A DNA stretch of 63,787 bases, from NCBI GenBank assembly GCA_007693385.1, contig REDR01000046.1, forward strand, positions 1 through 63,787. The letters are read 5' to 3'. Source of the stretch: Anaerolineaceae bacterium (GTDB taxonomy: Bacteria > Chloroflexota > Anaerolineae > Aggregatilineales > Phototrophicaceae). A program made the translations under genes and the position numbers. Position 1 is the stretch's first letter, and the number at the start of each line of letters is the position of its first letter. Positions 20,838-24,374 of this stretch are shown here, one piece after another. The notes below the pieces were generated by a model. It did no database searches. It saw nothing but the letters and a program-made list of their open reading frames with translations, and had not been told where the DNA came from.

Positions 20838-21524
20838 TCATTCCATCGGCTGTAGTTTTTGCTGTAAGCGCCGCCAGTGTGGTTGCCGCGCTTTGACCGT
20901 CACAAAGCGAAATTCCGGCAACCAGATGGCGCTCAGCTTGCCGCCATACACGCACCCGCTATCCAGCCCGAACACACGATCACGATAGTGAAACGGGCGA
21001 CCTTTGCCGGACATATCCTTATGCCCGACGATGATCGGCACGCCGCCGTCGTACAATTCCCACCACGGACGGCGATAGCGATTTTTGAGGTAGCTGGATG
21101 CGCCCATCGTGCCGACCAGTACGCGATGTTTCTGTTGCGTCAACGGGATGCCCGGCTCGAAATAGGCGTGCGCCAGTATCGCCTCCGGCAGGCGGATGCA
21201 ATCCGGCAGGCTGTCCATGTAGGCCACCGCGTCATCATAATCCGCGCCGAATTGCCAGCGCGTCATCATCATCGAGACGGTGGGCTGATAATTCTGGTGG
21301 CGGGCGCGGATGTGCTTGTGCTCATGATTGCCCAGCACCGCCCGCACGCGATACTGGGAGTTATACCGGAAGAAATCCAGCACGCGGGCGGAATCCGGGC
21401 CGCGATTGACCATATCGCCTAACGAGATGATCTGGTCGTCGTCGTTCACGCCTGCCTTATCCAGCAATTTCATCATTTCTTTGTAACATCCGTGGATGTC
21501 ACCGATGACCAGTGTCCGGCTCAT
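20838..21524 (-). CDS. Metallophosphoesterase (Ser/Thr phosphatase or ApaH-like)
   Basis: The 228-residue protein carries the calcineurin-type metal motifs GDIHG, GDMVNRG, GNHE, a later GHKD and the C-terminal GLDSGCVYGG. Together these place it in the PrpA/ApaH-like branch, which dephosphorylates phosphoproteins or splits diadenosine tetraphosphate. I chose the ATG at 21524; an in-frame TTG at 21542 would overlap the metG stop by a few bases and is possible. Neither has a strong ribosome site, which suits coupling to metG translation. Linkage to an aminoacyl-tRNA synthetase is notable because synthetases make Ap4A, so an Ap4A-hydrolase role is tempting but unproven. Confidence 0.85.
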   Translation of the reverse strand: MSRTLVIGDIHGCYKEMMKLLDKAGVNDDDQIISLGDMVNRGPDSARVLDFFRYNSQYRVRAVLGNHEHKHIRARHQNYQPTVSMMMTRWQFGADYDDAVAYMDSLPDCIRLPEAILAHAYFEPGIPLTQQKHRVLVGTMGASSYLKNRYRRPWWELYDGGVPIIVGHKDMSGKGRPFHYRDRVFGLDSGCVYGGKLSAIWLPEFRFVTVKARQPHWRRLQQKLQPME

Positions 21525-21538
21525 GCTGTCGCTTTCAC

Positions 21539-23365
21539 TCAATCTTGCTCTAAAATCGGCATCTCTTCGCGTGGCTTGCCCAGAAAACCGCGCTCATATT
21601 CCACCACATCCTCATCGAGTTTGGTGAATAGCGGTGACGGCTTGCGGAGCTTCTGGCCGGACTGTAACGCGCTGACCTCCCAGCGCCCGATGGCGGCGCT
21701 CCCGTCGTAGACCAGCGCCCGATGCGAGCGCATCTCCTCCGCATATTCGACGATGTTCAAATCACCGAACAACTGCCCATCATAGCCCAGATATTCATGG
21801 ACTTCCTGCGAGCTAAACGGCAGATAGGGCGCTAAGGCGGTCTTCAAGTTGTCGATCACGCGCAGGATGGTGTACACCGTCCGCGCCGCGCCCGCCTCAT
21901 CGGTCTTGATCGTCTTCCACGGCTCGGTTTCGTTGAGGTAGGCGTTCGCCTCGCGCACGACGCCCAGCGCCACATCCAGACCTTCCTTCAGGCGCACGCG
22001 CTCAATCAACGCGCCGACGCGCTCGATCGCTTCTTCACTGCGGGCGATGATGGCCTGATCTTGCTCGGTCAGCGTATCATACGCGGGCACGACGCCCGCG
22101 TAGCGCTTATACGCGAAGCCCAGCATCCGATTGACCAGATTGCCCCACGCCGCCACCAGCTCGTTATTCACGCGGGTGACGAAGCCCTCCCAGCTAAAAT
22201 CAGTATCCGATGATTCGGGGAAGGAGCGCGCCACGTAGAAGCGGAGCGCGTCCGCCTGATAGCGGGCGAGTACATCCGGCGCCCAGATCGCCCAATTGCG
22301 GCTCTTGGAGAATTGCTTGCCCTCAATGTTCATGAATTCGTTGGCTGGCACGTTGTAGGGCAGGTTAAGCGGCGTGTCGTCGCCGTCATTGTACAGCCCG
22401 TTAATGCCGATCAACTCCGCCGGCCAGATCACGGTATGGAACGGGATGTTGTCCTTGCCGATGAAGTAATACGTCTCCGCGTCGGGATTATACCACCATT
22501 TTTTCCACTCGTCGGGCTGGCCGATGTTCTTCGCCCATTCGACGCTGGCGGTGAAATAGCCATTGACCGCCTCGAACCACACATAAATCCGCTTATCTTC
22601 CCAGCCTTCAAGCGGCACGCTCACGCCCCAGTCCAGATCGCGGGTGTATGCCCGCCCGCGCAAGCCTTCATCGACGCCCTTTTTAATCAGGTTGCGCGTG
22701 AAATTGACCACGTTTGGCCGCCAACGCTCTTGATTTTGCTTCAGATATTCCAGCAACCCCTGCGCGGTCTGGCTGAGGTCGAGAAAGTAATGCTCGCTCT
22801 CGCGCACGATCAGCCGATCATCGGGGTCGTTGCGGTTGTGCGGGTCGATCAATTTGGTAGCGTCCATCAGATTGCTACAGTTATCACACTGGTCGCCGCG
22901 TGCGCTCTCATAGCCGCAGATGTAGCATGTGCCCTCCACGTAGCGATCCGGCAAAAAGCGGCTTTCGCGCTCGCTATACAGCAGTTTTTGCTTCTCTTTG
23001 TACAGATAATCGCGCTCGTATAGCTTCAAGAAAATATCCTGCGCGATGCGGTGATGGTTCTCGGTGTCGGTGTGCGAGAACAGATCATAGCTGATGCCCA
23101 GCACTTTCTGCGTCTGCAAGAAGCGCTCGTGATAATGCTCGAATACCTCACGCGGGGAGATGCCGCGCCTGTCGGCTTCGAGGCTAATCGGCGTGCCGTG
23201 CGTATCCGAGCCGGACACCATCAGCACCCGGTTCCCCTTCAGGCGATGGTAACGGGCGAAGATGTCGGCGGGTAGATACGCGCCCGCCAGATGGCCGACG
23301 TGTAAATCGCCGTTGGCATACGGCCACGCCACAGAAACATGGATATACTTCGGTTGGTCGGTCAT
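21539..23365 (-). CDS. metG: Methionyl-tRNA synthetase
   Basis: The 608-residue class I synthetase shows HVGH (residues 22-25) for the HIGH motif and KQFSKS (350-355) for KMSKS, with a Met-type zinc knuckle CYICGYESARGDQCDNC. The anticodon-binding helical domain follows, with NRMLGFAYKRY and an ending near residue 608. The C-terminal EMAP-like extension found in some bacterial enzymes is absent. It charges tRNA-Met with methionine in the cytosol. It is the first gene of a three-gene minus-strand unit and is preceded by a long leader with a terminator hairpin between the promoter and the start codon, suggesting transcription attenuation. Confidence 0.96.
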   Translation of the reverse strand: MTDQPKYIHVSVAWPYANGDLHVGHLAGAYLPADIFARYHRLKGNRVLMVSGSDTHGTPISLEADRRGISPREVFEHYHERFLQTQKVLGISYDLFSHTDTENHHRIAQDIFLKLYERDYLYKEKQKLLYSERESRFLPDRYVEGTCYICGYESARGDQCDNCSNLMDATKLIDPHNRNDPDDRLIVRESEHYFLDLSQTAQGLLEYLKQNQERWRPNVVNFTRNLIKKGVDEGLRGRAYTRDLDWGVSVPLEGWEDKRIYVWFEAVNGYFTASVEWAKNIGQPDEWKKWWYNPDAETYYFIGKDNIPFHTVIWPAELIGINGLYNDGDDTPLNLPYNVPANEFMNIEGKQFSKSRNWAIWAPDVLARYQADALRFYVARSFPESSDTDFSWEGFVTRVNNELVAAWGNLVNRMLGFAYKRYAGVVPAYDTLTEQDQAIIARSEEAIERVGALIERVRLKEGLDVALGVVREANAYLNETEPWKTIKTDEAGAARTVYTILRVIDNLKTALAPYLPFSSQEVHEYLGYDGQLFGDLNIVEYAEEMRSHRALVYDGSAAIGRWEVSALQSGQKLRKPSPLFTKLDEDVVEYERGFLGKPREEMPILEQD

Positions 23366-23403
23366 AATGATCCTTTCCTAAAGGTACGCCTGATTCTAAG
23401 CAA

Positions 23404-23443
23404 CAAAAAACCGCCTGCCAATAGCAGACGGTCGGCGGTTTTT
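23404..23443 (-). terminator. Intrinsic terminator inside the metG leader
   Basis: On the minus strand AAAAACCGCC (23443-23434) pairs with GGCGGTTTTT (23415-23406), and the T-run continues to TTTTTTGTTG. It sits about 40 bases before the metG ATG with no minus-strand gene upstream, so it must act on the metG leader transcript itself. The stem would also work on the plus strand. Confidence 0.75.
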
Positions 23444-23596
23444 CAAATATACGCCCTAAACAGCCCTCAGGCCATCGCGCATACAATCAGCCGTCTGCAA
23501 CAACGCAAGCGACGGCCTGACATTCGTCCGTTGATTGATTGCTGACTGCTGTTCATCGCGTGTGTGCGCTCCACAATTCCAGATAATGACGTGTAC
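23404..23596 (-). promoter_or_regulatory. Attenuator-like leader of metG
   Basis: The leader RNA can form a 12-base-pair stem (minus-strand 23520-23509 with 23478-23467, one G-U). The loop of that stem holds GCAGACGG (23498-23491), which is complementary to CCGTCTGC (23431-23424) in the terminator loop. An inner stem GCCGTC/GACGGC competes with that pairing. A 29-codon ORF (ATG at 23556, TGA at 23467) with three Met codons spans the same stem and could be a leader peptide. I see no T-box sequence and no familiar SAM riboswitch core. The exact mechanism is unknown. Confidence 0.5.
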
Positions 23597-23602
23597 ATGC
23601 GG

Positions 23603-23633
23603 ATTATACCACAATTCGAACCTAACTACTCAA
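23603..23633 (-). promoter_or_regulatory. Promoter for metG
   Basis: Reading the minus strand, TTGAGT (23633-23628), a 19-base spacer and a perfect TATAAT (23608-23603) preceded by TGG (extended -10). The predicted start is near 23596, giving a leader of roughly 230 bases before metG. Confidence 0.6.
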
Positions 23634-23783: not shown

Positions 23784-24374
23784 ATGGCAGACAGACAAAA
23801 CCGGCGCGACCTCATCATTCATACGGCGGCTACATTATTTCTGGAAAACAGCTATAACGCGACATCCGTCCGGCAGATAGCCGAGGCCGTCGGCGTCACC
23901 GAAGCCGCGCTGTATTATCATTTCAAAGATGGCAAGCGCGGGCTATTACAGGCCGTGCTGGAACATTACATGCCGAATCTCATCATCGTCGGGGAGCAAT
24001 GCGCTAGCGCCCCCACGCTGGCCGATTTCGTGCGCCAGTTCATCGCCGGTCAGGATACCGAACACAACCGCCAGAATTTTGACCGCCTGCGCTGGGTTCT
24101 GCTGGAATATCCCAACCTGAGCGCGGAGGAACAGGCCATCTTCCACCATAAAGCGCAAACCACACACGCCAAACTCACCGCGCTAGTCGGTCACTACGTC
24201 AGCGACGCGGCGAAAGCCGACAAACTGGCGTGGCTTTTGATCGCGCTACTTTTCGGCTACGGGCAGATGTTCTTCAACATGGGGTTGATGCAGGTCGCGC
24301 CACAGATGGAAGGTGAGGACGTGATCGCGCTGATCGGCGATCTATTCGGCGGGCAGGCCGACAAACAGACATAA
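23784..24374 (+). CDS. TetR/AcrR-family transcriptional regulator
   Basis: The 196-residue protein has an N-terminal TetR helix-turn-helix at about residues 10-55: RRDLIIHTAATLFLENSYNATSVRQ, then EAVGVTEAALYYHFKDGK. A helical ligand-binding domain follows, with low conservation as usual. It probably represses its own promoter through the inverted repeat at 23726-23740. No efflux pump or other classical TetR target is adjacent; the divergent neighbour is metG and the convergent one is the histidine kinase gene. The inducer is unknown. No strong ribosome site is visible before the ATG. Confidence 0.9.
   Translation: MADRQNRRDLIIHTAATLFLENSYNATSVRQIAEAVGVTEAALYYHFKDGKRGLLQAVLEHYMPNLIIVGEQCASAPTLADFVRQFIAGQDTEHNRQNFDRLRWVLLEYPNLSAEEQAIFHHKAQTTHAKLTALVGHYVSDAAKADKLAWLLIALLFGYGQMFFNMGLMQVAPQMEGEDVIALIGDLFGGQADKQT

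Follow-up and report, generated by a model that had tools for sequence, protein, structure and literature searches.

Methionine codons in the metG leader of Anaerolineae: a probable ribosome-mediated transcription attenuator

The metG locus and its leader

The DNA examined here is a stretch of 63,787 nucleotides (the window), corresponding to contig C56 within a 3.59-Mb genome. The methionyl-tRNA synthetase gene metG (608 aa; TIGR00398, 487 bits) occupies positions 21539–23365 of the minus strand, with its ATG at 23365. Among the matches listed, the remaining MetG hits in this genome are partial and do not exceed 31% identity, and the closest named records, within the best 80, are from Anaerolineae or Chloroflexi/Chloroflexota MAGs. 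The neighboring gene at 20838–21542 (minus strand) is ApaH/metallophosphatase-like, with domain matches below the cut-offs; as listed, its first 4 bases are also the last 4 of metG, and the two genes may be co-transcribed. A TetR-family regulator gene (23784–24374, plus strand; NCBIfam matches below the cut-offs) lies in divergent orientation to the metG leader. The interval separating this TetR-like gene from the leader promoter contains a perfect 9-nt inverted repeat, CTTTTGCAT...ATGCAAAAG (23672–23664 and 23649–23641, spacer 14), which is operator-like by eye.

The first-pass annotation described a leader of about 230 bases before metG, and the sequence, a terminator scan, and folding bear out the parts that it listed, all on the minus strand. 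The promoter, as read from the sequence (23603–23633), has a weak -35 element, TTGAGT, at 23633–23628 and the annotated extended -10, TATAAT at 23608–23603, which is preceded by TGG. The spacer is 19, and the promoter is absent from the consensus promoter scan, in which the spacer limit was 16–18. The leader-peptide ORF, in its longest in-frame version as read from the sequence and its translation (23467–23598; MYTSLSGIVERTHAMNSSQQSINGRMSGRRLRCCRRLIVCAMA, then stop), comprises 44 codons including the stop from ATG 23598, and the frame is open upstream of the 29-codon, Met-containing version that had been reported to overlap a stem and is present from ATG 23556 to TGA 23467 (23467–23556). The true start is uncertain, as ATG 23598, GTG 23574, and ATG 23556 are all in one frame. 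This ORF has three internal Met codons in 43 and no Met run, and only one Met codon is at the critical place. This is codon 26 (CGA-ATG, 23521–23523), the putative control codon on the basis of the modelled terminator probability described below.

Directly 3' of this Met codon is arm 1 of a protecting stem (TCAGGCCGTCGC, 23509–23520), which pairs with arm 1' (GCGATGGCCTGA, 23467–23478), the latter ending in the stop codon. Sequence and folding identify this as the annotated 12-base-pair stem (23520–23509 with 23478–23467), with one G-U among its 12 pairs. The loop of the stem contains the antiterminator segment GCAGACGG (23491–23498), assigned from the sequence with comparative support. An intrinsic terminator was correctly placed just before metG and consists of a hairpin (23433–23409 in the scan) followed by a U-tract (23405–23433 overall), with support from the terminator scan and from stem covariation in family relatives. 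The loop of the 12-bp stem had been described as complementary to the loop of this terminator. The complementarity holds, in that GCAGACGG matches CCGTCTGC (23424–23431) exactly over 8 nt, but within the terminator CCGTCTGC is the 5' arm of the stem, common to antiterminator and terminator, and not the loop.

The fold of the window leader alone is not exceptional, either for the whole leader (z -1.55, 16/200 shuffles as good) or without the terminator (z -0.65, 50/200), and consequently no conclusion is drawn from folding energy. The complementarity of the window ORF to the terminator arm was matched by 4 of 200 shuffles. The evidence against chance for this leader is comparative, coming from sequences of relatives. 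Comparison did not uphold the particular 12-bp stem of the window, the sequence of which is not conserved in relatives; no clear equivalent was found in the rest of the family, and a candidate equivalent appears only at the order level.

Conservation of the leader among relatives

A MetG match at E 0.001 was found in all 61 genomes searched (own included), a few of which have only fragments or other synthetases as their matches. The upstream regions examined number 120 (57 at the family and order levels, 63 at the class level), and a terminator-like site is present in 69 of these, class level included, where some may be spurious. In the family, 31 of 34 assessable metG genes or operons are preceded by a short Met-containing ORF and, after it, a terminator. 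These 31 comprise 27 leaders without an intervening gene and four leaders (G022, G023, G025, and G036) separated from metG by a gene of the same orientation. Among the family upstream regions examined, those of G010, G018, and G035 have no such leader. At the order level, a leader with a Met ORF and terminator is present in 19 of 21 assessable genomes, and at the class level in 13 of 63 regions, a count that covers leaders adjacent to metG. Three family genomes (G017, G024, G034) and three order-level genomes (G048, G050, G053) were not assessable.

Several choices define these samples. The ORFs of the 59 modelled leaders were hand-picked, guided by Met content and the -10, and 57 of the 59 contain at least two internal Met codons. 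The terminators of L026, L070, and L084 were placed by hand, the G025 leader was spotted by eye and then translated, and the single-Met candidate L055 was left out of the counts. For the family 40-mers, two duplicates were dropped from 27 and 25 were used. Examples of the leader peptides are MNTYSTTFSMMVMRTPRQDRRRALPPA (L005), MNESARNGMMMGMMCCEPCRRGGEALCWHRSRPSA (L039), and MNTLKFAIKLMPMVMPCRTTAV (L071). A very Met-rich leader, MNFKPAFPMVLITMAMRTMRMEMSCCAEWKAR, with strong modelled switching, is found before metG at L104 in a class-level genome of a distant family (G086). The gene between the Met leader and metG in G022, G023, and G025 (L058 3107–3856, L059 1460–2269, L239) encodes a nucleotidyltransferase domain (PF01909) in G023, and the G022 and G025 copies are similar by eye; the intervening gene of G036 encodes 467 residues with a membrane-protein look by eye.

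Two scans address the distribution of the leader more widely. In a loose scan of the best 80 named records, run without a shuffle control, such ORFs were found in many Anaerolineae/Chloroflexi MAGs; the 5 Dehalococcoidia and 9 actinobacterial loci had none. An ORF match in Ktedonobacter, long and promoter-less, was taken as chance. Eight of 41 genomes contain a match to a strict pattern consisting of the family antiterminator, terminator, and U-tract, eight matches in total, and each of these lies at metG or at its operon; the reversed pattern had no match in the 41 genomes. As the strict pattern misses the window and most relatives, it is indicative of specificity and not of frequency.

Methionine codons and their distance from the antiterminator

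Clustering of codons was assessed with no ORF chosen, by scoring any trinucleotide that, in the 200 nt preceding the terminator, occurs at least three times within 6 codons. ATG is the sole strongly clustered codon in the 69 leaders with a terminator, where it is clustered in 34 and the next codon, TGC, in 9; dinucleotide shuffles gave a mean of 1.36 and a maximum of 5 for ATG over 200 sets. Furthermore, of 293 pairs of ATGs separated by no more than 24 nt, 213 share a phase, versus 36% in shuffles. With the same test over 300 nt upstream of the gene, ATG is clustered in 32 of 116 metG regions, versus 1 of 22 trpS regions of the lineage.

In 26 of the 27 family leaders the antiterminator starts 14–29 nt past the last in-frame Met codon before it (2 nt in L056), with a distance of 17 nt in 12 leaders, and in 26 of 27 (all but L016) the antiterminator is in one reading phase. 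At the 14–29 nt spacing, a ribosome paused on the Met codon would leave the antiterminator just beyond its footprint. An attenuator sensing either Met charging or methionine level had been suggested for this leader, and the comparative evidence supports such an attenuator. Of the two signals, charging read by a ribosome on Met codons is favored because the close ATGs share one phase and are located about one ribosome footprint before the antiterminator.

Antiterminator and terminator pairing in the family

At a threshold of no more than 10 equally good shuffles in 200, the antiterminator helix outperforms shuffles in 23 of the 27 family leaders and in 8 of the 32 others. Results from covariation analysis of the family place three of five measures above all shuffles and two within the shuffled range. 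For the antiterminator, the covariation score is 0.243 versus 0.166 in shuffles (0/500 as high) and the number of double-change cells is 15 versus 7.3 in shuffled columns (0/500), while the pairs changed on both sides (4 versus 3.2; 193/500 shuffles as high) and the pair types (14 versus 12.5; 107/500) are the two within the range. The terminator stem also covaries in family relatives, so that the covariation proposed as a check on this leader is found for both helices on most measures. Because the 10-mers used for covariation were chosen as best complements, which favors pairing, a fairer control is to swap arms between leaders; the leaders' own arms fit better than swapped arms (546.6 versus 478.8, 0/1000).

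The two helices differ at pair 4, which is A-U in the antiterminator of 19 of 27 family leaders and G-U in the terminator of 20 of 27, a difference that would favor the antiterminator when both can form. Three leaders depart from the family pattern. L016 has no clear antiterminator within its ORF, and in L010 and L031 the consensus arm fits better than the leader's own arm.

Promoter position and predicted leaderless start

In 25 of the 27 family leaders the leader ATG is located 6–7 nt after the -10 element, compared with 14 of 289 other ATGs in these upstream regions, and 24 of 27 have a -35 element matching at least four of six positions. The distance of 6–7 nt suggests that the transcript probably starts at the ATG, and, judged from promoter position, family transcripts are predicted to begin at the leader ATG and hence to be leaderless. 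The same spacing is found in 11 of 32 leaders outside the family. The window is an exception within its family, with 4 nt between -10 and ATG, and this departure from the leaderless pattern leaves its start codon unsettled. L007 has no -10 at that place and appears to rely on an internal ATG that has an SD-like AGGA.

Modelled ribosome-dependent switching

To model the switch, a ribosome was positioned at every codon in turn and the RNA beyond it was folded, the RNA being treated as free from 12 nt past the beginning of the A-site codon. In the window, the modelled terminator probability is 0.04 with the ribosome at codon 26 (ATG 23523), 0.13 at codon 25, and at least 0.92 at all other codons, stop codon included. 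The value at codon 26 is 0.01–0.21 for assumed footprint edges of 8–12 nt and 0.50 at 13; with an edge of 14 or more the effect at codon 26 is lost (0.96) and the minimum shifts to codons 24–25. For the 27 family leaders, the terminator probability averages 0.589 at Met codons versus 0.771 at random codons (0/2000), and when only codons 5' of the antiterminator are considered it is 0.537 versus 0.639 (1/2000). With a ribosome at the best Met codon the pre-terminator fold favors the antiterminator (family mean 0.82), for which the mean is 0.12 with the ribosome at the stop codon and 0.61 without a ribosome. These results suggest that, in the model, ribosome position at the control codons decides which helices form, both in the window and in the mean of the 27 family leaders.

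The family mean terminator probability is 0.51–0.70 before the Met codons, and together with the antiterminator value of 0.61 without a ribosome this indicates that the family switch is less Met-exact than that of the window. Additionally, equilibrium folding retains the terminator in many relatives despite a ribosome at the Met codon (e.g., L005, L006, L009). As the terminator is the most stable structure in several leaders with a stalled ribosome, read-through in these leaders would require that the antiterminator form first, which is a kinetic effect.

The lowered terminator at pre-Met positions is also what might be expected if the leader peptide served a different signal, such as arginine supply, a general slowing of translation, or an antibiotic, and the peptides are often Arg-rich past the Met codons (RRDRRR, RRWRFGRG). 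The Arg codons of the family, however, are largely the antiterminator sequence itself, and a ribosome stalled there would cover it; the modelled family mean terminator probability is approximately 0.95 from 5 codons past Met. Given also that the one strongly clustered codon is ATG and that the regulated gene is metG, an attenuator for another signal is considered very improbable.

Wiring at the order and class levels

In the window, arm 1 of the 12-bp stem follows the Met codon immediately and the stem encloses the antiterminator. The 32 leaders at the order and class levels exhibit little switching in nested folds, with antiterminator values of 0.40 at the best Met codon, 0.16 at the stop, and 0.41 without a ribosome. 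In 17 order-level leaders (L034–L057), the 5' arm of the best helix begins 3–12 nt after the last clustered Met codon, as in GCCTGCCGTGGTC with GACCACGGCAGGC (L044) and CGAGCCG with CGGCTCG (L034). The 3' arm of this helix starts 10–15 nt before the terminator arm in 10 of the 17 and further upstream in 7. The helix encloses a segment that can pair with the terminator arm or loop, such as GCGGAAC/GTTCCGC in L048 and GCGAGGC/GCCTCGC in L039. This second wiring is a candidate lead that is only sketched here, and nested folding showed no switching by it.

Searches for known RNA families

No Rfam family matches the window leader at gathering score, and the sub-threshold matches include Hrs13 (18.9 bits versus a cut-off of 52), which was rejected as reflecting the shared shape of a GC-rich terminator. 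The T-box (RF00230) and SAM or methionine riboswitches were likewise not found by Rfam at the window and 10 other metG loci, in agreement with the earlier statement that no T-box or known SAM motif is seen. T-boxes are present upstream of trpS in L232, L235, and L237, which belong to order and family relatives (3 of 4 trpS loci scanned; not L234), indicating that the lineage possesses T-boxes even though none was found at the scanned metG loci.

These searches bear on whether the leader could be a ribosome-independent RNA sensor, either T-box-like or a methionine or SAM riboswitch, in which the AUGs would be specifier-like and untranslated. Control of metG by mutually exclusive helices and the occurrence of T-boxes before trpS in the lineage would both be consistent with such a sensor. 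In addition to the Rfam results, though, no conserved aptamer-like core is apparent by eye, and similarity within the family is confined to the terminator and antiterminator segments. The AUGs are mutually in phase, the ORFs stop 19–57 nt before the terminator (59 leaders), and 25 of the 27 family leaders have a start codon where the transcript is predicted to begin, all of which argue against an RNA sensor and make it very improbable. Finally, a constitutive terminator with an sORF product (sRNA or peptide) that acts in trans without control of metG, similar to Sinorhizobium rnTrpL/peTrpL, has a precedent in that attenuator products can work in trans (as described in an excerpt of PMC7298713), but it gives the antiterminator complementarity and covariation no role and is at odds with the fact that, past the Met codons, the family and the other members of the order differ in peptide sequence, and we regard it as very improbable.

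Proposed mechanism and implications

The analyses described above computed the parts of the leader, their conservation, the in-phase Met clusters, the spacing, the covariation, and the modelled switch. Based on these results, it is highly likely that the metG leader is a ribosome-mediated transcription attenuator that senses tRNA-Met charging and controls the methionyl-tRNA synthetase gene. We infer that in cells the ORF is translated, the ribosome stalls on it, transcription terminates before metG, and expression responds to charging. In the proposed mechanism, transcription would start at or near the short leader ORF. When Met-tRNA is plentiful, the ribosome would pass the Met codon(s) and proceed to the stop, covering or removing the antiterminator (GCAGACGG in the window), which would allow the terminator before metG to form. 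When Met-tRNA is scarce, the ribosome would stall at the Met codon and, in the window, cover arm 1 of the 12-bp stem. This would free the antiterminator to take the terminator 5' arm CCGTCTGC, and RNA polymerase would continue into metG. The resulting increase in synthetase would restore charging, and the control would therefore be autogenous.

A broader proposal, which we put forward only tentatively and consider doubtful, is that this is an old, class-wide Met attenuator of the Anaerolineae in which one synthetase limits both leaderless initiation (fMet-tRNA) and elongation (Met-tRNA), such that two charging levels might be read at once and the response might be non-monotonic. A stalled ribosome would then signal mild shortage and an empty leader severe shortage. 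The modelled state without a ribosome varies between leaders, with the terminator favored in the window and the antiterminator in L004, L015, L017, L018, and L029, as if, on this dual-charging proposal, lineages set the response to severe shortage differently.

If the attenuator operates as proposed, methionine would join the amino acids that are read by ribosome-mediated attenuation, the synthetase for the initiator amino acid would be under the control of its own charging, and ribosome-mediated attenuation would extend to the Chloroflexota. It would also become testable how a leader operates when starvation affects initiation as well as elongation.

Comparison with known systems

Ribosome-mediated attenuators that follow the trp, his, and pheST logic are textbook examples of transcriptional control. 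T-boxes control synthetase genes through antitermination in response to tRNA charging, and S-box/SAM riboswitches provide methionine-related control via terminator/antiterminator structures. Similar to the trp, his, leu, thr, ilv, and phe leaders and gammaproteobacterial pheST, the metG leader contains an ORF with cognate codons and an intrinsic terminator, and it shares with the known amino-acid attenuators an overlapping antiterminator and the use of ribosome position as the signal. In contrast to these attenuators, its control codon is Met, its target is metG, and its host belongs to the Chloroflexota. Both T-boxes and the metG leader are found on synthetase genes, although in the metG leader charging would be read by the ribosome. 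S-box/SAM riboswitches differ in that no Rfam match to them was found at the metG leader.

The attenuator specificities named in the excerpted text of PMC3766115 are his, leu, thr, trp, ile/val, and phe, and the section of PMC1262725 on methionine operons describes those of Actinobacteria as lacking conserved upstream RNA structure. According to a passage of PMC2965389 (2010), no leader-peptide system beyond the Proteobacteria and Actinobacteria, ermC apart, was known before the Firmicutes case that it reports. For the Chloroflexota, an extract of PMC2494555 reports T-boxes alone for a synthetase gene, namely that of the Dehalococcoides ile tRNA ligase. Leaderless leader-peptide attenuators are represented by S. 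meliloti trpL (excerpt of PMC7298713) and by C. glutamicum ilvBNC, which is discussed as leaderless in a portion of PMC11857589. In both, the transcript starts at or near the leader ATG, as predicted for 25 of the 27 family leaders; they differ in amino acid and phylum, and the ATG of the window is too near its -10 for a leaderless start to be certain there.

A Met or metG leader-peptide attenuator was not found among the matches listed from the open-access PMC literature, and it is on this basis that the variant is claimed as novel. The kind of mechanism is known; what seem to be new are the Met control codon, the metG target, and the Chloroflexota host.
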